This document shows positions 25,589 through 63,804 of a stretch of DNA of 64,000 bases, in pieces (the first letter of the stretch is position 1; each line of letters starts with the position of its first letter). Under the pieces are notes generated by a model. The model ran no database searches, was not told the DNA's origin, and saw only the letters and a list, made by a program, of their open reading frames with translations. The position numbers and the translations under genes were made by a program. Source of the DNA: Chthonomonas sp. (GTDB taxonomy: Bacteria > Armatimonadota > Fimbriimonadia > Fimbriimonadales > Fimbriimonadaceae); assembly GCA_016788115.1 (NCBI GenBank), contig JAEURR010000007.1:216488-280487 (forward strand), in the 5' to 3' direction.

Positions 25589-26419
25589 ATGCCCCATGCC
25601 GTCGTGATCAAGCCGGACCAGTCCATCGACCTTGCCAAGTTCGACACTTGCGAGAAAGGTGGGCTCGATAAGGAGACCGCTCAGGCGAAAGTCGCTGAGC
25701 TCGGCAAACGACTGACCGAGCTTCAAGAGCTCATGTACGCCGCGGGTCGGAACAGCCTCTTAGTCTTGTTTCAGGGGCGAGATACCGCAGGTAAGGACGG
25801 TGCAATCAATCGAATGCTCGACTTCGTAAACGTGCAAAGCGCGCGGGTCGCTGCATTCAAAGTCCCGACTCCCGTCGAGCTTGCCCACGATTTCCTGTGG
25901 CGGGTGCACCAAGAGACGCCCGGCAAAGGCGGCATCACTGTTTTCAACCGCTCTCATTACGAAGACGTCCTGGTGGTGCGAGTGCATGAACTCGCGCCGA
26001 AGGAAGTGTGGTCCAAGCGGTACGAGCACATCAACAACTTCGAGCGTATCCTTACGGATAGCGGCACCATCCTGATCAAGTTCTGTCTGTGGATCAGCAA
26101 AGACGAGCAAGAGCAGCGGCTCCTTGACCGCGAGCAAGACCCGACGAAGAGTTGGAAACTTTCAGTCGGCGATTGGAAAGAGCGGGAGAAGTGGGACGAC
26201 TACACCGCCGCGTATGAAGACGTGCTCAAGCGGTGCAGCCCGGAGAACGCGCCATGGCGACTCATCGCCGCAGACCACAAGTGGTACCGCGACCTCGCCG
26301 TGATGGAGACACTGATCTCTGCGCTTGAGCCTTATGAAGCTGGTTGGCGAAAGCACCTTGAGGAGATCGGCGTAAAGGCGAGAGCCGAGCTCGAGGCGTT
26401 TCGCGCCGCCGTTCCCTAG
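25589..26419 (+). CDS. polyphosphate kinase 2 family protein (polyphosphate:nucleotide phosphotransferase)
   Basis: A 276-residue PPK2 enzyme that transfers phosphate between polyphosphate and nucleotides. Walker A is GRDTAGKDG, Walker B-like is FNRSHYEDVLVVRV, and the lid module WKLSVGDWKEREKWDDY follows. The FNRSHYEDV form is the one found in the class III-like polyphosphate:AMP/ADP phosphotransferases, so AMP or ADP is the likely acceptor. ATG 25589 is preferred over 25559, because the family starts shortly before the IDLAKFDT region. It is a single-gene unit. Confidence 0.92.
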   Translation: MPHAVVIKPDQSIDLAKFDTCEKGGLDKETAQAKVAELGKRLTELQELMYAAGRNSLLVLFQGRDTAGKDGAINRMLDFVNVQSARVAAFKVPTPVELAHDFLWRVHQETPGKGGITVFNRSHYEDVLVVRVHELAPKEVWSKRYEHINNFERILTDSGTILIKFCLWISKDEQEQRLLDREQDPTKSWKLSVGDWKEREKWDDYTAAYEDVLKRCSPENAPWRLIAADHKWYRDLAVMETLISALEPYEAGWRKHLEEIGVKARAELEAFRAAVP

Positions 26420-28770
26420 GGAGGGGTCGTCTCGGTTCCGCCGCCGTCAAACGAGCCGTCAAAGAACTTCATCATCGGCGACTTCCGGAATGCAGCCCTT
26501 TTGGCTTCGAGCTTTGCTTGCTGCTCCGCCGTCAGATCCTTCAGCCCCACGATCTTAGCGCTTGACGCATGCTGGTCGTCGACGAGCCGCTCCGAAACCT
26601 TTATCCCCGGGGCCAGATCCAACACGATATTGATAATGTTGCGGTCTCCAAGCTTGAACTTGTCCATTGCGGGCATGAACGCCGCCATCTGCGCGAACAT
26701 CTTGGTCTCCGACATCACCTGCATCATCGCCAGTTCGCTCGAACCCAGCGCGCCCATCATGCGCGACATCGGATTGTCCTGATCCGCCAAAACGATGCTG
26801 AAGTCTTGCTCAATGTTCAGCTTCAGGGTCCCGTTGCTGGGTACGCCGTTGGGCAGTGCCTCGGTCGGCTCGTTTCGGTAGTCGGTCATCTTCTGCGGCA
26901 TCCACATGACCATCATCTTCATGAAGTCATCTTGATCCGTCTCCTTCCCGGGATCGTCCACTTTGATCATGGGTGGCGCGCCAAAGACGAGCTTTCGGAC
27001 AGTGGCCATTTGCGTTTGCGAGAGCACGTTGAAAGGAATCCCCTCACCGCGCTTCAGTTGGTCTCGCTGCGCGTTGCTGAGCGACCCGTACAGGCGAAGG
27101 ATGTCCCAGTTCGTGAGGCCACCGGTCATGGAGCCCATCGCACCCGGAACGAACTGCATGCAATACCGGCCTGAAACCGCTGACAGGGTCGGTGATGGAC
27201 TGGTCGCTGCGTAAGTAGCGTAGTCGTCGATGTTCGCAACCCCCTTTTCGGTGGCTGCCGCGACCAGTTTGGTAAGCCCGGCGCGATCCACTTGATCGCG
27301 CCGCGCCGCAATCCAACTCGCGGGCCGTGCGCCCAGCCAGTTGCCCGACTGATCCACGACGACTGCGTCATTCTCACGGAGCGCGGTGTAGTAGTTCTGC
27401 GCCATCGTCTCGGGCCGAGCAAAGCTCATCACGCCCCCGGAGTCCAACCCATCCGGCAAATTTACGATGACTTGCCAGTCGTTCAGCTTGGCGATCGTCG
27501 CCAACGCGTCCCCGTGCACGAAACTCAGCGGGTCGTACATGTCGGGTCGAGACAGAATCGCGCGCGCCTTCGGGTCGATCTTAGCTGAGCCACCTTCGGT
27601 GAACATGGTCATCGGATTGAGTGAGCTCACGAGTTTGGACTCTTCACTTTGTTCGATCTTTCCATCCTTGATCGGGTACTTCGGCGGCTCAGGCTTTCGC
27701 TCCTCTGGCTTCTTTCCCGGAATGGGCACGCCCGCATCTTCGGCGATATCCTCGACCGCTTCCATCACCCGCTCGGATTCGGAGTAGTCCTGCAGGGGCA
27801 TCTCTGCCGAAGCGACGATCTCACCCTTCGTGTTGAAAACGACGAGTTCGAGCTGCATCGTGCCGCCACCGTCCATGAACCAGTTCATTCCGCCCCCGCC
27901 ACCATTGGAAACCACCAAGTTGATCTTCGCAGGAGGAGTCGCCAGTCCCTGACGAGGTCGGTTCATCCCCATCATCTCTGCCCACGGTCCAAGCTGCTCC
28001 ATCATTTCCGCTCGCTCAGCCGGATTCTCCTTAGCGGCCTTCCCTTCCGCGTCTGCAAGTTTGTTGTGCTCGGCGAGGAAGGTGGCGACCAGTTGGCTCT
28101 GGATCGTCATCGGGCGCTGCATGCGGGTCGGCGAAGTCGAGTACACGACTCGCGAACCCTCTTCGATCATGGCTAGGTCGGCCGGTCGGAGCGTCAAGGC
28201 GACTTTCGACAAGAGGGTGTTCTCAGGTGAATCGCCGCCTCCGAACATTCGACTTACTGTTTGTCTCGCCTCCGGAGCATCATTGGTGTCGGGTGCCGAG
28301 TTTCCTTGTTCAGCCTCGGCAGCCGCGCGCTTCAGCATCCGCTGAGTCTCTTCCTTCTCCTGTGACTCGCGAAGTCCCTTCAGAACGCGCGTGAAGTATG
28401 CGGCTCGCGCAGCGCGCAGCTCGTTCTCGACGCGATTCATCGCTGCGGGGTCATCAATCAAATGCTTGGATCCGTCGGGGTCCGTTCGCCATCGGCCGCC
28501 CGAGTACCGCGCAATGCGCTCCATCACTTCGGAAACCGGAGCATCCTTGACGTGAACGAAGAACACGTCGGCGGCGAGCGCGGGGGCAACCTCTAGCGTC
28601 TGCCCAGTGAGTGTGCCTAGTTGCGAAACCACTACCGACAGCGGTTTCGCTTTCGCGTCCAACGTGACCGAGTCCACCGACTCTAGGATCAAGTTAGCGT
28701 GGGCAAAGGCTGCAATCGCGATCGGCATGATGCCGAATCCAACCCGGCGAAGAACCGCGCATGATTTCAT
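26416..28770 (-). CDS. large exported protein with STN-like N-terminal domain, unknown function
   Basis: A 784-residue protein with a signal peptide (about residues 1-26, ending AHA) followed by a 75-residue stretch LDAKAKPLSVVVSQLGTLTG...VSEVMERIA. This has the look of the secretin/TonB short N-terminal (STN) domain: a beta-alpha-beta unit that binds partners in the periplasm. The remainder is Met- and Pro-rich in places, with long charged helices and no motif I recognise. A TACAAT hexamer five bases before ATG 28770 and no Shine-Dalgarno suggest a leaderless mRNA. It lies downstream of a prepilin gene but is separated from it by a terminator. Confidence 0.8.
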   Translation of the reverse strand: MKSCAVLRRVGFGIMPIAIAAFAHANLILESVDSVTLDAKAKPLSVVVSQLGTLTGQTLEVAPALAADVFFVHVKDAPVSEVMERIARYSGGRWRTDPDGSKHLIDDPAAMNRVENELRAARAAYFTRVLKGLRESQEKEETQRMLKRAAAEAEQGNSAPDTNDAPEARQTVSRMFGGGDSPENTLLSKVALTLRPADLAMIEEGSRVVYSTSPTRMQRPMTIQSQLVATFLAEHNKLADAEGKAAKENPAERAEMMEQLGPWAEMMGMNRPRQGLATPPAKINLVVSNGGGGGMNWFMDGGGTMQLELVVFNTKGEIVASAEMPLQDYSESERVMEAVEDIAEDAGVPIPGKKPEERKPEPPKYPIKDGKIEQSEESKLVSSLNPMTMFTEGGSAKIDPKARAILSRPDMYDPLSFVHGDALATIAKLNDWQVIVNLPDGLDSGGVMSFARPETMAQNYYTALRENDAVVVDQSGNWLGARPASWIAARRDQVDRAGLTKLVAAATEKGVANIDDYATYAATSPSPTLSAVSGRYCMQFVPGAMGSMTGGLTNWDILRLYGSLSNAQRDQLKRGEGIPFNVLSQTQMATVRKLVFGAPPMIKVDDPGKETDQDDFMKMMVMWMPQKMTDYRNEPTEALPNGVPSNGTLKLNIEQDFSIVLADQDNPMSRMMGALGSSELAMMQVMSETKMFAQMAAFMPAMDKFKLGDRNIINIVLDLAPGIKVSERLVDDQHASSAKIVGLKDLTAEQQAKLEAKRAAFRKSPMMKFFDGSFDGGGTETTPP

Positions 28771-28775
28771 AACCC

Positions 28776-28781
28776 ATTGTA
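28776..28781 (-). promoter_or_regulatory. -10 hexamer placed for leaderless transcription
   Basis: TACAAT on the minus strand ends five bases before the ATG of the STN-like gene. Transcription would begin at or next to the start codon. No clear -35 box was found. Confidence 0.4.
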
Positions 28782-28840
28782 CGTCCACCAAGCTCGCAAG
28801 GTTGACCGGTTCAGATCAAAAATGTGCAAGAAGTCCCGGC

Positions 28841-30070: not shown

Positions 30071-32584
30071 TTAGCCCGCGGTTCCGGCCTTTTCTTTCTT
30101 CTTCGGCGGCTTTTGTTCCTTCTTGACGAAGACCACTTGCTCGCCGTCCAACTCGGCCAACACGGAGTCGCCCTCGGTGAAGCGGCCCAGCAGCAGCTCT
30201 TCGCTGATCGGGTCTTCGATGAAGCGCTGGACGGCGCGGCGCAGAGGTCGGGCACCCATGTTCGGGTCGTAGCCCTTGTCCACCAGCAGGTCCTTGACCG
30301 CATCGCTGAGCTCCAGCGTGATGCCCATCTGCTTGGCCGACTCGTTGACTCGGCGCATGTACAGGTCGGCGATCTCGAGGATCTCCTCTCGCTTCAGATG
30401 CTGGAATACGATGACTTCGTCAACTCGGTTGATGAACTCAGGTCGGAAGGTCTTCTTCATCTCGTCCAGCATGCGCCGCTTCATGTTCTCGTACACCTTC
30501 GGATCGCTCGGATCCTCTCGCGTATCGGCGAAACCGAGGCGGCTGTCAAGCTCGATCGGCCGTACGCCGACGTTACTCGTCATGATAATGATCGTATTTC
30601 GGAAGTCCACCTGTCGGCCTTGCGAGTCGGTCAAGTGACCGTCTTCCATGACCTGCAGCAGGATGTTGAAAACGTCCGGGTGGGCCTTCTCAATCTCGTC
30701 GAGCAGGACGACGCTGTACGGGTTGCGGCGAACCTGTTCGGTTAGCTGGCCACCCTCATCGTATCCCACATAGCCCGGAGGCGCGCCCACCAGTCGGCTG
30801 ACCGAAAACCGCTCCATGTACTCGCTCATGTCGATGCGAATCATGTTCGATTCCTTGTCAAACAGGTAGGCGGCCAGGGCCTTGGCGAGCTCGGTCTTAC
30901 CGACACCCGTGGGGCCGAGGAAGATGAACGAACCCATGGGCCGCTTCGGATCGCGCAGACCTGAGCGGCTGCGGCGAATCGCTCGCGAAACGGCCGAGAC
31001 GGCGTCGTGCTGACCGATGATCCGCTCGTGGAGGTCGTCCTCCATGCGCAGAAGCTTGGCCGACTCGCTCTCCTTGACCATGTTCACCGGGATACCGGTC
31101 CAACTCTGGACAATGAGCGCGATCTCGTGATCCGTGACGATGGCAGGGCCCTTCTCTTCGGCCATCCACAGATCCTCGCGGTTCGCGATCGACTCTTCGA
31201 GCTCTTCGATTTCCGTTTGGAGCTTGAGAGTCGCGTCGTCGGTCTCGCTCTTGCGTCGCAGGTGGTCGAGTTCGGACTTCATCTTGCTCGCCTTCACGCG
31301 GTCCTGTCGGACGTCGAGCGGAGGCAGGCTCATCTGCAGTCGAACGCGGCTGGCAGCTTCATCGATCAGGTCGATGGCCTTGTCAGGCAAGCTGCGATCA
31401 GTGATATATCGCTGCGAAAGCTGCACCGAAGCGATCAGCGCATCGTCCGTGATTTCCACGTTGTGGTGAACCTCGTAGCGCTCGCGCAGACCCTTCAGGA
31501 TGTCGGTTGCCTCTTCCTCGTTCGGTTCGCGCACCTTCACAGCTTGGAAGCGTCGTTCCAGCGCCGCGTCACGCTCAATGTACTTGCGGAACTCTTCCTG
31601 GGTCGTCGCGCCGACGCATTGCAGTTCGCCTCGTGCCAGAGCAGGCTTCATGATGTTGCTGGCGTCGATGGCCCCTTCGGCGGCGCCCGCTCCAACCAGC
31701 GTGTGAAGCTCGTCGATGAAGAGAATCACTTGGCCCTCGGACCGGCGGACCTCTTCCATGACCTTCTTCATGCGCTCTTCAAACTCACCGCGGTACTTCG
31801 TGCCCGCGACCAAGCCGGCAAGGTCCAGCGCAATGATTCGCTTGTCGGCGAGCAAGTCGGGAACGTCGCCCTGCACGATTCGCAGCGCAAGCCCTTCGGC
31901 GATGGCGGTCTTGCCGACACCGGGTTCGCCGATCAAGCACGGGTTGTTCTTCGTGCGTCGGCTAAGGATCTGCATGACGCGCTCGATTTCAGATTGGCGG
32001 CCCACCACGGGGTCCAGCTTGCCTTCGCGGGCAAGGTCGGTCAAATCGCGGCCAAATTCGTCCAACGTAGCGGTCTTCTGGCCACCGCTCGAGCGCTCCG
32101 AGCTACTGCTGCTGGATCGGCTCGACCCGGTGGAGCGTCCGCCGCTCGACTCGTTGTCTTGCAGCGCCAGGACTTCGCGTCGCGCTCGTTCAAGCTCGAC
32201 TCCCAGCTTTGCCAGGACTCGTCCAGCGAGGCCATCGCCTTCGCGGATCAGGCCGAGGAGCAAGTGCTCAGTGCCGATGTAATTGTTGTTGAGATTCCGC
32301 GCCTCATCGTAAGCCAAATCGATCACGCGCTTGGCTCGCGGGGTCAGCGTCATCTCCTGACTCGGACGTGCATCACCGCGCGGAAGCTGCTTCTCGACTT
32401 CTTGTCGAATGCGGCTCAGGCTGACGCCCAGTTTCTCCAGGACACGGGCCGCGACACTGTCGGACTCGCGTACTAGCCCCAGCAGGAGATGTTCGGTGGA
32501 GACATATCCTTCGCCGAATTTTTGCGCCTCTTCCTGGGCGAAGAAAACGACCTTGCGTGCTCTTTCAGTGAATCGTTGCCACAT
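30071..32584 (-). CDS. clpC: ATP-dependent Clp protease ATP-binding subunit ClpC
   Basis: An 837-residue Hsp100 unfoldase that feeds substrates to ClpP. Two Clp_N repeats (residues 1-145) are followed by a Ser-rich linker, AAA domain 1 (Walker [14 protein letters not shown], Lys near 224), a short middle domain of the ClpC rather than ClpB type (about 410-490), AAA domain 2 ([13 protein letters not shown], Lys near 561) and the D2-small domain. The tail is Lys-rich ([12 protein letters not shown]). The ClpC-type operon partners ctsR, mcsA and mcsB are absent; the gene stands alone with its own terminator. Confidence 0.97.
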
Positions 32585-32906: not shown

Positions 32907-34337
32907 ATGCAAAGCGCATCGAAGGTCGGCACGTTGGTCCTGGTTTTCGGGGGGCTCATGCTCGGGTCGTACGCGATCCTGCAGCGGAGCATCTTCGCGC
33001 CAAAGAGCGATCAGTACTTCGCCGAGTTCGCCGATGCGGGCGGAGTGACCGTCGGCGCACGAGTCCTGCTCGCGGGGGTGAACATCGGGAGCGTCTCAAA
33101 GGTTGAGCTCGTCGGCGGCAACCGCGCCAAGCTCACCCTGGACGTCGCGCAAGGCACGCAGATTCCCCAAGGCACCGTGGCCGTGCTCCCCACCGCGCTC
33201 ATCGGCATCGGCGATCGCCAGATCGAACTGACACCACCTGTGAAGACCGGCGGATACCTAACAAGCGGGGCCACCCTAATTGGATCAATGAAGTCGCCGC
33301 TCGATGCATTTGCCCCGGACAGCGGCACCACCGTGGCGGCCATGGAGCAGACCCTCAAGAGCGCGACCAAGACCATGGATGCCATGACCAAGCTCCTGTC
33401 AGACCAGTCACTCAAATCGGACGTTCAGGCGCTCATGCAGCAGAGCGCTGCGACCGCTGCCGCCTTTGGCAAGCTTGCCGCACGCTTTGACCAGACCCTT
33501 TCGCAGAATCAAGCCGCCATTCGCGAGATGATGCGCAACGGATCGGCCATCAGCGGCGACCTCGCGCAAATGAGCCGCAAGTTCTCAAGCTACGTTCAGA
33601 GCGGCAAGCTCCAAGGCGGCGTGGACGCCCTCATGGAGCAGATGAATGGCGCGCTCACCGAGGGCCGCGGACTGGTCGCCGATATGCGCAAGGCAATGAA
33701 CGACCCCGCCGTCCAAGACAACATAAAAGGGATCCTCGCCAACGCGAACACGATGAGCAAGACCGGGACCGAGATCGCCGAGAACGCGAAGATTCTGACC
33801 GGCAAGGGAGTCGATTTTGCCGATGAAGCGACCTCGCTGATGAAGAAGGCAAACAAGCTTGCCGATGAGGCGAGCGACCTCTTCGCCGAGCTCAAGAAGA
33901 AGATCATCGGCGGCGGAGCGTCCGGCCTGACCGGTGCCCTGCGCAAGATCGAGCTCAGCGCGGACGCCCACCGCGAGAGCAAACCGGACCGGTGGCGAAC
34001 CGACCTCGGCGTCAAGATCCCAATCAGTTCCAAGGAAAACGTTCACTTCGGCCTGTGGGACGCATTCGAGTCTAACAAACTCAACCTGCAACTCGGCTCC
34101 CCCTTCGGCAAGAATGGCGAACTGCGCTACGGCGTCTACGCCAGCAAGCCTGGCGCGGGAATCAACATGCCGCTGGGCAACTCGATGGCGTTACGCGGAG
34201 ACGTCTTCGGGGTGAACCGCACGCGGTTCGATGCCCGGCTTGAATACAAATTCACCAAGAACGCCGTCGGCTGGGTCGGAGCAGATCGCATCTTCGACCG
34301 GAACACCCTCAGCGTTGGATTTGGAATTCGGCGCTAG
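32907..34337 (+). CDS. MCE/MlaD-family protein with barrel-like C-terminus
   Basis: A 476-residue lipid-transport protein. One membrane helix (residues 7-27) is followed by the MCE domain (about 37-115; GVTVGARVLLAGVNIGSVSKVEL), then a long helical stretch rich in Ala, Met and Lys (about 130-340), then about 110 residues of short alternating strands ending NTLSVGFGIRR. MCE proteins form hexameric channels in the periplasm. The helical region could form the needle and the tail an outer-membrane beta-barrel, as described for MlaD of Veillonella. No MlaE permease or MlaF ATPase gene is adjacent. Confidence 0.85.
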   Translation: MQSASKVGTLVLVFGGLMLGSYAILQRSIFAPKSDQYFAEFADAGGVTVGARVLLAGVNIGSVSKVELVGGNRAKLTLDVAQGTQIPQGTVAVLPTALIGIGDRQIELTPPVKTGGYLTSGATLIGSMKSPLDAFAPDSGTTVAAMEQTLKSATKTMDAMTKLLSDQSLKSDVQALMQQSAATAAAFGKLAARFDQTLSQNQAAIREMMRNGSAISGDLAQMSRKFSSYVQSGKLQGGVDALMEQMNGALTEGRGLVADMRKAMNDPAVQDNIKGILANANTMSKTGTEIAENAKILTGKGVDFADEATSLMKKANKLADEASDLFAELKKKIIGGGASGLTGALRKIELSADAHRESKPDRWRTDLGVKIPISSKENVHFGLWDAFESNKLNLQLGSPFGKNGELRYGVYASKPGAGINMPLGNSMALRGDVFGVNRTRFDARLEYKFTKNAVGWVGADRIFDRNTLSVGFGIRR

Positions 34338-34408: not shown

Positions 34409-34945
34409 ATGAAAGTAATTCTCAGACAGACAGTTCCAAATCTCGGCAAAGCCGACCAAATCGTGACCGTCAAGGACGGATACGCACGCAATTACCTCTT
34501 CCCGCGCGGCCTCGCCACCGTTGCCGATCGCTCGCAGATCAAAGCGCTCGAAATTCGAAACACCCGGCTAGCGGACAAGATCGCCGCGAACAAGGCCCAA
34601 GCCGAAGACCTCAAGACCAAGATCGAAGGCACCGAAGTGCGACTCGAAGGCAAGGTCGGCAAGGACTCCGGCAAGTTGTTCGGCGCAATCACCGCGCAGG
34701 ACATCGCCGACGCTCTCAAGAAGGCCACTGGTGTGACCGTCGAGAAGAAGCAGGTTGGTCTGCTCGAGCCAATCAAGCGGCTCGGCACCCAGCGACTTTC
34801 GATCGATCTGCACCGCGATGTCGATGCCCACATCACGGTCGTTGTGTTCGACCCCGAAGCCCCGGTTGAGGCACCTGCCGCTACGGAAGTTGCTGCAACC
34901 GATGATGTTGCGGCCGAACCGGAAGCGGAAGCCGTCGAAGCCTAA
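34409..34945 (+). CDS. rplI: 50S ribosomal protein L9
   Basis: L9 binds 23S rRNA and stabilises reading frame. The N-terminal domain MKVILRQTVPNLGKADQIV and the DGYARNYLFPRGLA signature are unambiguous, followed by the long connecting helix and the C-terminal domain. At 178 residues it is about 30 longer than typical because of an Ala/Glu/Val-rich acidic tail after residue 148. A strong AGGAGG site lies upstream. The usual neighbours rpsF, ssb and rpsR are absent. A terminator follows at once. Confidence 0.97.
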   Translation: MKVILRQTVPNLGKADQIVTVKDGYARNYLFPRGLATVADRSQIKALEIRNTRLADKIAANKAQAEDLKTKIEGTEVRLEGKVGKDSGKLFGAITAQDIADALKKATGVTVEKKQVGLLEPIKRLGTQRLSIDLHRDVDAHITVVVFDPEAPVEAPAATEVAATDDVAAEPEAEAVEA

Positions 34946-44244: not shown

Positions 44245-44655
44245 ATGGCAAAATCCCTATACGTGGGCAATCTTTCGTACTCGGCTACGGAAGGCGACCT
44301 TATTCAAGCATTCGAGAAGTTCGGCGCAACCGTTGCCCGAATCGTTCAAGGTCGCGGCTTCGGCTTCGTCGAAGTTCCCGATGATCAGGCAGACGCAGCA
44401 ATCGAAGCCCTGCACGGCAGCCAGATGATGGGCCGAACCCTTACCGTTAACGAGGCACGACCGCGCGAGCCGCGAGAGGCCCGTGGCGGCGGTGGTGGCG
44501 GCTACGGCGGCGGCGGCGGTGGTGGTCGCAGCGGTGGCGGCTATGGCGGCGGCGGCGGTGGCGGCTATGGCGGCGGCGGTGGTGGTCGCAGCGGTGGTGG
44601 CGGTGGTCGCAGCGGCGGTGGTCGCGGCGGCAACGATCGCGGCGGACGCTGGTAA
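44245..44655 (+). CDS. glycine-rich RRM RNA-binding protein
   Basis: A 136-residue protein with one RNA recognition motif (residues 3-76). RNP2 is LYVGNL and RNP1 is GRGFGFVEV. From about residue 80 it is nearly pure Gly with Tyr, Arg and Ser (repeats such as GGGYGGG and GGGRSGG). This is the bacterial/plant GRP layout, associated with cold adaptation and RNA chaperone activity. AGGAG lies upstream of ATG 44245. The Gly-rich tail could drive condensation with RNA. Confidence 0.93.
   Translation: MAKSLYVGNLSYSATEGDLIQAFEKFGATVARIVQGRGFGFVEVPDDQADAAIEALHGSQMMGRTLTVNEARPREPREARGGGGGGYGGGGGGGRSGGGYGGGGGGGYGGGGGGRSGGGGGRSGGGRGGNDRGGRW
44485..44650 (+). repeat. GGC-rich tandem repeat encoding the glycine tail
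   Basis: Imperfect copies of GGCGGCGGTGGTGGTCGCAG and related units. Such tracts change length by slippage, so the tail may vary between strains and assemblies. Confidence 0.7.
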
Positions 44656-44673
44656 GCAGCAGCCTCGACTTAC

Positions 44674-44709
44674 GACGGAAGGCACCTCAGGGTGTCTTTC
44701 GTCATTTTT
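44674..44709 (+). terminator. intrinsic terminator of the RRM gene
   Basis: A 13-bp stem with two G-U pairs (44674-44686 with 44691-44703), 4-base loop, and a following ATTTTT. Confidence 0.85.
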
Positions 44710-44797
44710 GGGGCACTGCCCCGACCGATTCGGTGTCAAACAACTTGGACACCACAACGCGATGCCACTAAGAGAACTGCAGACTCAACGAGGACCC

Positions 44798-45400
44798 ATG
44801 CGGGACGTCACCGAGAGCCCCGATCACCAGCCCCAATGGATCATCATTGCGGGCCCAAACGGTTCCGGCAAGTCGACGACCGCGAACCTCTTGCTGCCTC
44901 CATCCATGACGTTCGTCAACGCGGACATGATTGCGCAGTCGATTTCGGGTGTCGCCACGACGACTGCGGACCTGCGCGCTGGGCGCTTACTCGTCAACCT
45001 GCTTGACGAGCTAGAGTCCGACCGCCTCGACTTTGCAGTGGAGACGACGCTGGCCACGCAGAAGCTCATCCCTCGACTCCAGCGCTTGCAAGGCGATGGG
45101 TACGAAACCCACCTGATCTTCATGTGGCTGGAATCGCCCGAATTGGCGGTCGAACGCGTGCGTTCCCGAGTCCGAATGGGGGGTCACGACGTCCCCGAGG
45201 ATACGGTGCGCCGACGCTATGCCCGCGGCCTGAGACACTTTTTTGACTCGTATTGGGAGGCAGTTGACCATTGGCGGATGTATGATAATTCGAGGTTGAA
45301 CGATCCGGTCCGCATCGCTTCGGGGGGAAGGGCCCGGTCATTGGAAGTCAACCAACCCAGCAAGTGGGATCGAATTGTCGAGGAGTTTCGCCGTGGGTGA
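44798..45400 (+). CDS. zeta-toxin-like P-loop kinase
   Basis: A 200-residue P-loop protein. Walker A is GPNGSGKST near residues 18-26; NADMIAQ supplies a zeta-like metal or substrate site; FAVETTLA and the region LIFMWLESPELAVERVRSRV with RRYARGLRHFF match the zeta toxin/AAA_33 kinase group. Zeta toxins phosphorylate UDP-N-acetylglucosamine and stall wall synthesis. ATG 44798 follows a GAGG site; an upstream in-frame ATG 44762 is possible. It overlaps the small gene downstream by eight bases. Toxin activity is not shown by sequence. Confidence 0.82.
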   Translation: MRDVTESPDHQPQWIIIAGPNGSGKSTTANLLLPPSMTFVNADMIAQSISGVATTTADLRAGRLLVNLLDELESDRLDFAVETTLATQKLIPRLQRLQGDGYETHLIFMWLESPELAVERVRSRVRMGGHDVPEDTVRRRYARGLRHFFDSYWEAVDHWRMYDNSRLNDPVRIASGGRARSLEVNQPSKWDRIVEEFRRG

Positions 45401-63160: not shown

Positions 63161-63804
63161 TCCGCGCTTCCGATGCATCCTTGGTGTACTCCGATCACGG
63201 CAAAGAAGTCTTCGCGTGCAAGGCGGTCGGCCTGGAACTCCACGAGGGTGAGTTCGTGGGCATCCTCGGCCCCTCTGGGTCGGGCAAGAGTTCGCTACTT
63301 TTCTTACTTTCAGGACTGAAAACTCCTACTAGCGGGCAAATATCGCTCGATAATCAAGACATCAATCAACTTTCCGACGCCGCGCGCAGTGCCCTACGGC
63401 TGAAATCGTTCGGCTTCGTTTTCCAGTACCCGTACCTGCTCGGGTACCTCAGCGCGCTCGAGAATGTACTGCTCGCTCGTCCCGGCGAGGACCGCCGGGA
63501 CGAGGCCCTAGAGTTGCTTGAGGAGCTGGGGATCGGCCAAAAGTCCCATCGGAAGCCGCATGAACTCTCCGGCGGTGAGCGTCAACGCGTGTGCGTTGCC
63601 AGGGCACTCTTGGGTTCACCGCGAGCCATCTTTGCGGACGAGCCCACTGCGGCGCTCGATCACAAGAATGGAACTCAGGTAGTCGAGCTTTTGAACCAGC
63701 ATCGGGGCTCGGGCACGCTCATCATGGTCACCCACGACCCCTCCATGCTGGCCCAAGCCGACCGAATCATCCAGATCTCCGATGGCGAAATTGTCCACCA
63801 CTGA
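63157..63804 (+). CDS. ABC transporter ATP-binding protein (LolD/MacB-type)
   Basis: A 215-residue ATPase. Walker A is GPSGSGKSS, the Q-loop is FVFQYPYLLGYLSALENV, the signature is LSGGERQRVCVARALLG, Walker B is AIFADEPTAALD, and the H-loop is MVTHDPSM. It serves the FtsX-like permease encoded immediately upstream, with a 4-base overlap. The substrate is not known. Confidence 0.94.
   Translation: MIRASDASLVYSDHGKEVFACKAVGLELHEGEFVGILGPSGSGKSSLLFLLSGLKTPTSGQISLDNQDINQLSDAARSALRLKSFGFVFQYPYLLGYLSALENVLLARPGEDRRDEALELLEELGIGQKSHRKPHELSGGERQRVCVARALLGSPRAIFADEPTAALDHKNGTQVVELLNQHRGSGTLIMVTHDPSMLAQADRIIQISDGEIVHH

Follow-up and report, generated by a model that had tools for sequence, protein, structure and literature searches.

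A barrel-tailed MlaD and a candidate dispersed MlaEFD lipid transporter in a family of Armatimonadota

The mlaD locus and its domain architecture

The window, by which we mean the whole 64,000-nucleotide (64-kb) stretch of DNA analyzed, contains an open reading frame that starts with ATG, occupies exactly positions 32907–34337 of the plus strand in the ORF list, and encodes a protein of 476 residues. This gene, its neighbors and the segments of its product are as follows:

30071..32584, minus strand: clpC-type AAA protease subunit, divergent and outside the Mla system (PF07724/PF02861)
32907..34337, plus strand: mlaD, elongated MCE/MlaD protein, 476 aa (ORF; PF02470, E = 5e-13)
32913..32987, plus strand: N-terminal membrane helix, residues 3–27 (AlphaFold2 helix, pLDDT about 45–50; hydrophobic sequence)
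33006..33293, plus strand: MCE domain, residues 34–129 (Pfam match at 35–111; AlphaFold2 strands at 34–129; fold matches)
33321..33905, plus strand: helical stalk, residues 139–333 (six AlphaFold2 helices; hydrophobic periodicity)
33951..34331, plus strand: predicted C-terminal ten-stranded barrel, residues 349–475 (AlphaFold2; fold matches; alternating faces)
34409..34945, plus strand: rplI, ribosomal protein L9, conserved neighbor of mlaD (ORF; 71 bases downstream of mlaD)

A Pfam profile search placed PF02470 (the Pfam MlaD family) on residues 35–111 with a score of 49.5 bits against a curated cut-off of 25.1, and no further Pfam family scored above its own cut-off on this protein. The same profile matched no other gene in the genome, which spans 2.4 Mb at 97% completeness. 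In the full-length AlphaFold2 model, for which the alignment input consisted of eight family sequences, a helix at residues 3–27, which would act as an inner-membrane anchor, is followed by MCE strands at 34–129, helices at 139–333 and ten strands at 349–475. Pfam and AlphaFold2 thus bear out the plan given by the initial annotation, namely an N-terminal helix, one MCE domain, about 200 residues of helix and a strand tail; the tail is strand-rich up to the C-terminus as described, but at about 127 residues and ten strands it slightly exceeds the 110 residues first assigned to it. The best Foldseek matches of the model were to Mycobacterium smegmatis Mce1, and alignment of the modeled MCE domain (residues 31–129) with Mce1 chain 8fed_F gave a Z of 15.2 and an rmsd of 1.9 over 97 residues, while residues 32–128 aligned with Escherichia coli MlaD (5uw8_B) at Z 14.4 and an rmsd of 2.2 Å over 95 residues. 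A promoter and terminator scan around mlaD returned nothing beyond chance.

Two further genes in the window deserve mention in their own right. One, at 26416–28791 on the minus strand, encodes a 791-residue protein with no Pfam matches and adjoins a gene for a prepilin-like protein. The other, at 44483–45400 on the plus strand, encodes a zeta-toxin-type P-loop kinase domain after a long alanine/valine low-complexity stretch, and its real start probably lies further in.

The predicted C-terminal barrel

Modeled by itself, the tail folded into ten antiparallel strands with a mean pLDDT of 91.8 and a pTM of 0.80; within the full-length model, its block-mean pLDDT was 75–89 (residues 349–475). Searches of the tail sequence against PDB, Pfam and NCBIfam gave no significant matches, so its identification as a barrel rests on structure and residue pattern. 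In the PDB, Foldseek ranked designed transmembrane barrels and outer-membrane domains of OmpA/OprF/Ail type highest, at E values of about 1e-3, and 10-stranded outer-membrane barrels were among the best structural matches. With VIA-align, in which Z differences below 1 count as ties, the tail aligned with Pla at Z 14.6 (3.0 Å over 131 residues), with a Legionella porin at Z 13.9 (3.0 Å over 129) and with the designed barrel TMB10 at Z 13.6 (2.6 Å over 126).

The residue pattern was analyzed on 47 phylum sequences (46 and the query), with strand limits taken from the AlphaFold2 model. Separation of hydrophobic and polar faces along the ten strands reached 1.67, whereas shuffled sequences averaged 0.67 and peaked at 1.21; none of 5000 shuffles scored as high. 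The hydrophobic face is 80% nonpolar, 4% charged and variable (2.51 bits), whereas the opposite face is 59% polar, 38% charged and more conserved (1.99 bits). A variable nonpolar face with a conserved polar one is what would be expected of a barrel whose outer side faces lipid and whose lumen is polar, and it strongly supports that arrangement for the model; the strictly alternating hydrophobic and polar residues are likewise consistent with an outer-membrane barrel. The barrel predicted by the initial annotation is accordingly upheld, by ten modeled strands and a face pattern beyond chance. The tail could instead be a soluble periplasmic lipid-binding barrel of nitrobindin- or lipocalin-like type, and VIA-align does pair it with nitrobindin-type barrels at Z of about 11 and with DUF3598-type barrels at about 12; outer-membrane and designed transmembrane barrels nevertheless score higher, and the distribution of conservation is the reverse of that expected around a hydrophobic core. 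We therefore consider a soluble fold improbable and retain the outer-membrane barrel as the preferred reading.

Granted such a barrel, its contribution may still be modest. It may simply anchor or space the complex, with lipid released from the stalk on the periplasmic side and no conduction by the barrel, a variant to which we assign an even chance. A monomeric ten-stranded barrel is narrow, as remarked in PMC10665443, where the majority of long MlaD proteins are also described as lacking a full barrel, and the charge on the polar face (38–41%) would fill the lumen. Against this, conservation of the tail seems greater than a plain anchor needs: it is alignable across the phylum, is among the most conserved portions of MlaD, and carries a GxWDAFESNK stretch that is invariant in the eight family members.

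The helical stalk

Residues 139–333 show a hydrophobic period of 3.5 (z = 11.5 against shuffles), a heptad pattern extending over ~195 residues, and are modeled as six helices with pLDDT mostly below 50. Such periodicity is expected of coiled-coil-like helices, which could line a tunnel by analogy with other MCE proteins. A straight helix rises 1.5 Å per residue, and a straight stalk of about 195–220 residues could reach about 30 nm, sufficient for the periplasm.

Partner genes and the host envelope

The initial annotation described a solo MCE protein with the usual permease and ATPase genes absent nearby. Neither mlaE nor mlaF was found within the window, as stated, but the genome carries both at other loci, and a genome-wide search for them refuted the solo reading. 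A single MlaE permease gene lies at C6:382445–383071 (E = 1.4e-74) and matches the NCBIfam MlaE family model TIGR00056 above its cut-off. The MlaF-like ATPase is likewise represented by a single orthologue, at C6:124045–124746, which shares 55% identity with the MlaF encoded in the operon of another genome from its order and was the only hit below 1e-40 in the genome. Its match to the NCBIfam MlaF model falls below the strict cut-off, and the name MlaF therefore rests on orthology and the tree. The genome thus holds one copy each of mlaD, mlaE and mlaF at three separate, unclustered loci. We assume from this single copy number and from co-occurrence that MlaD pairs with the distant MlaE and MlaF, in a dispersed three-component MlaEFD system with an elongated, barrel-tailed MlaD. 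An ABC ATPase inside the window, at about 63220–63651, was also considered as MlaF and rejected: it adjoins a MacB/FtsX permease and is not an MlaF-like match.

MlaA and MlaC were absent from the six genomes searched, and the E. coli and Caulobacter positive controls were detected. The host is diderm, since its genome encodes LpxC, one TamB and one Omp85/BamA, the latter two adjoining each other; PMC4072686 also infers that Fimbriimonas ginsengisoli, a member of the class Fimbriimonadia, is diderm and has LPS genes. All eight MlaD relatives in the genome collection, at 34–56% identity, belong to Armatimonadota (Armatimonadetes, Chthonomonas and Fimbriimonadaceae bins), which places the closest homologues with a diderm host rather than with monoderms.

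Gene neighborhoods and break-up of the cluster

Across 201 sampled phylum genomes, PF02470 was found in 190 and PF02405 in 193; among near-complete genomes the figures were 141/141 and 140/141. Distances between mlaD and mlaE were counted in sampled genomes with both positions listed, the family being a group that we take to be Fimbriimonadaceae. Outside it, 89 of 95 genomes have the two genes within 5 kb of each other, the remaining 6 having them on different contigs of fragmented assemblies, whereas inside it none of 23 genomes shows such proximity and same-contig distances are 0.3–2 Mb. The order mlaE-mlaF-mlaD-rplI occurs at five outgroup loci, including the sister family, and rplI follows mlaD within 0.6 kb at all 15 family-type loci with downstream sequence and at 5/6 outgroup loci; the divergent clpC also adjoins mlaD in several relatives. 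In the MlaE and MlaF trees, the family copies group with the operonic copies of the sister family, with bootstrap values of 74 and 95, the placement predicted if mlaE and mlaF were relocated rather than replaced. Gene order and trees together indicate that mlaE and mlaF left an ancestral mlaE-mlaF-mlaD-rplI cluster early in the family and that mlaD stayed; the isolation of mlaD is the outcome of this break-up.

These distributions also bear on whether the protein might after all work alone, as a passive lipid tether with no ABC transporter. That both partner genes are missing from the window and lie far away would suit such a role, but MlaD and MlaE are near-universal in the phylum, their genes are clustered outside the family, and the MlaE and MlaF of the family are vertically inherited. 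With single MlaE and MlaF genes recovered by whole-genome searches, we rejected a transporter-free function as highly improbable, and we favor the dispersed MlaEFD system. Cluster break-up seems general in the class Fimbriimonadia, judging by analogy from Fimbriimonas, in which rRNA genes are split and dnaN, recF and gyrB are scattered (PMC4072686). A literature search for mlaD together with rplI found nothing.

Several individual loci showed further features. In Armatimonadetes bin SZAS-4 (L009, 5491–10654), mlaD-rplI is followed about 3 kb downstream by mlaF in the opposite orientation, an arrangement that may be a break-up intermediate or the result of secondary rejoining. The relocated mlaF adjoins an acyl-ACP reductase/PigE N-terminal-like gene at eight family loci (L087, 1456–3310; L088, L090, L092, L093, L095, L097 and L009), which suggests a conserved, possibly lipid-related pair. 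At L003 (6350–15045), the only mlaE of the genome is flanked on one side by atpD and on the other by a flagellar fliF-fliG-fliH-fliI cluster accompanied by a lytic transglycosylase-like gene. At L086 (5082–7763), an apparent 893-residue MlaD fusion crosses unknown bases into an oxidoreductase-like protein and is probably an assembly join, not a genuine fusion.

Comparison with known Mla and Mce systems

The closest parallel is Veillonella parvula, whose MlaD, as described in PMC10665443 (Grasekamp et al. 2023), shares the N-terminal helix, the single MCE domain, the long helical region and the ten-stranded barrel, and whose MlaEFD likewise comes without MlaA or MlaC in a diderm Terrabacteria host. 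The present protein is longer (476 against 419 residues), and mlaD here stands apart from mlaE and mlaF, whereas in V. parvula an mlaEFD operon lies beside tolC and tamB. Functional data exist for the V. parvula system, in which mla mutants display signs that outer-membrane lipid asymmetry is lost, an effect suppressed by tamB mutations; the present system is known from sequence and models. The initial annotation had seen the Veillonella plan in another diderm lineage, and the same plan, a predicted ten-stranded barrel and a diderm host are indeed present; the plan is not new, however, since that study reported long MlaD with a C-terminal barrel, on 103 sequences, as widely distributed in diderm Terrabacteria. 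Its main text does not name Armatimonadota, and a literature search on Armatimonadetes with MlaD found no relevant paper.

Within the phylum, operonic MlaD proteins of other Armatimonadota (e.g. L017, L072 and L083) have the same plan and an alignable barrel at about 20–29% full-length identity; their genes form mlaE-mlaF-mlaD-rplI clusters, of which the present family kept only mlaD-rplI. E. coli MlaD, part of the MlaFEDB complex, shares the MCE domain (Z 14.4, 2.2 Å over 95 residues) but has 183 residues, without long stalk or barrel, and works with MlaA, MlaC and MlaB, the first two of which were not found here. M. smegmatis Mce1 shares the MCE domain and a long helical needle, but is described in PMC10665443 as a heterohexamer in which six proteins each contribute one strand to a common barrel.

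Proposed mechanism

We consider it likely that this mlaD belongs to a minimal MlaEFD lipid transporter, encoded by three genes that are scattered over the chromosome in this Armatimonadota family and comprising an inner-membrane anchor, a hexameric stalk conduit and an outer-membrane barrel. The N-terminal helix would anchor MlaD in the inner membrane, where its MCE hexamer ring would bind MlaE and MlaF, and six amphipathic stalks would form a hydrophobic conduit through the periplasm to the outer membrane, in which one ten-stranded barrel per subunit may dock. ATP hydrolysis by MlaF would move phospholipid from one membrane to the other, most likely inward, as has been proposed for Veillonella, so that the complex with its barrel-tailed MlaD would stand in for MlaA and MlaC. 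We infer the hexamer, the tunnel, outer-membrane insertion, assembly with MlaE and MlaF, substrate and direction, and by analogy retrograde phospholipid transport through a trans-envelope tunnel bridging both membranes.

The barrel might act as anchor, gate or assembly aid. According to PMC10665443, a single barrel is too narrow for a lipid, and an arrangement of six barrels in a ring seems unlikely. A more elaborate proposal, to which we give only a slim chance, holds both that the Fimbriimonadaceae barrel is a lipid gate, with the GxWDAFESNK strand-turn and charged lumen as an outer-membrane recognition site, and that the separation of mlaD from mlaE and mlaF allows the cell to tie MlaD levels to ribosome production via rplI.

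Significance

What is new here is modest: conservation of the barrel throughout the phylum, an invariant WDAFESNK motif in close relatives, and break-up of the operon. A lone mlaD gene does not equate to a missing transporter, and whole-genome searches can locate its partners. The 46 aligned, divergent barrel sequences besides the query offer material for hexamer modeling and for the question of barrel role left by the Veillonella study. Overall, the analysis broadens the range of the barrel-tailed, three-component Mla system to the whole of Armatimonadota and supports the published view that this system, rather than the six-part one of E. coli, is the common diderm design.
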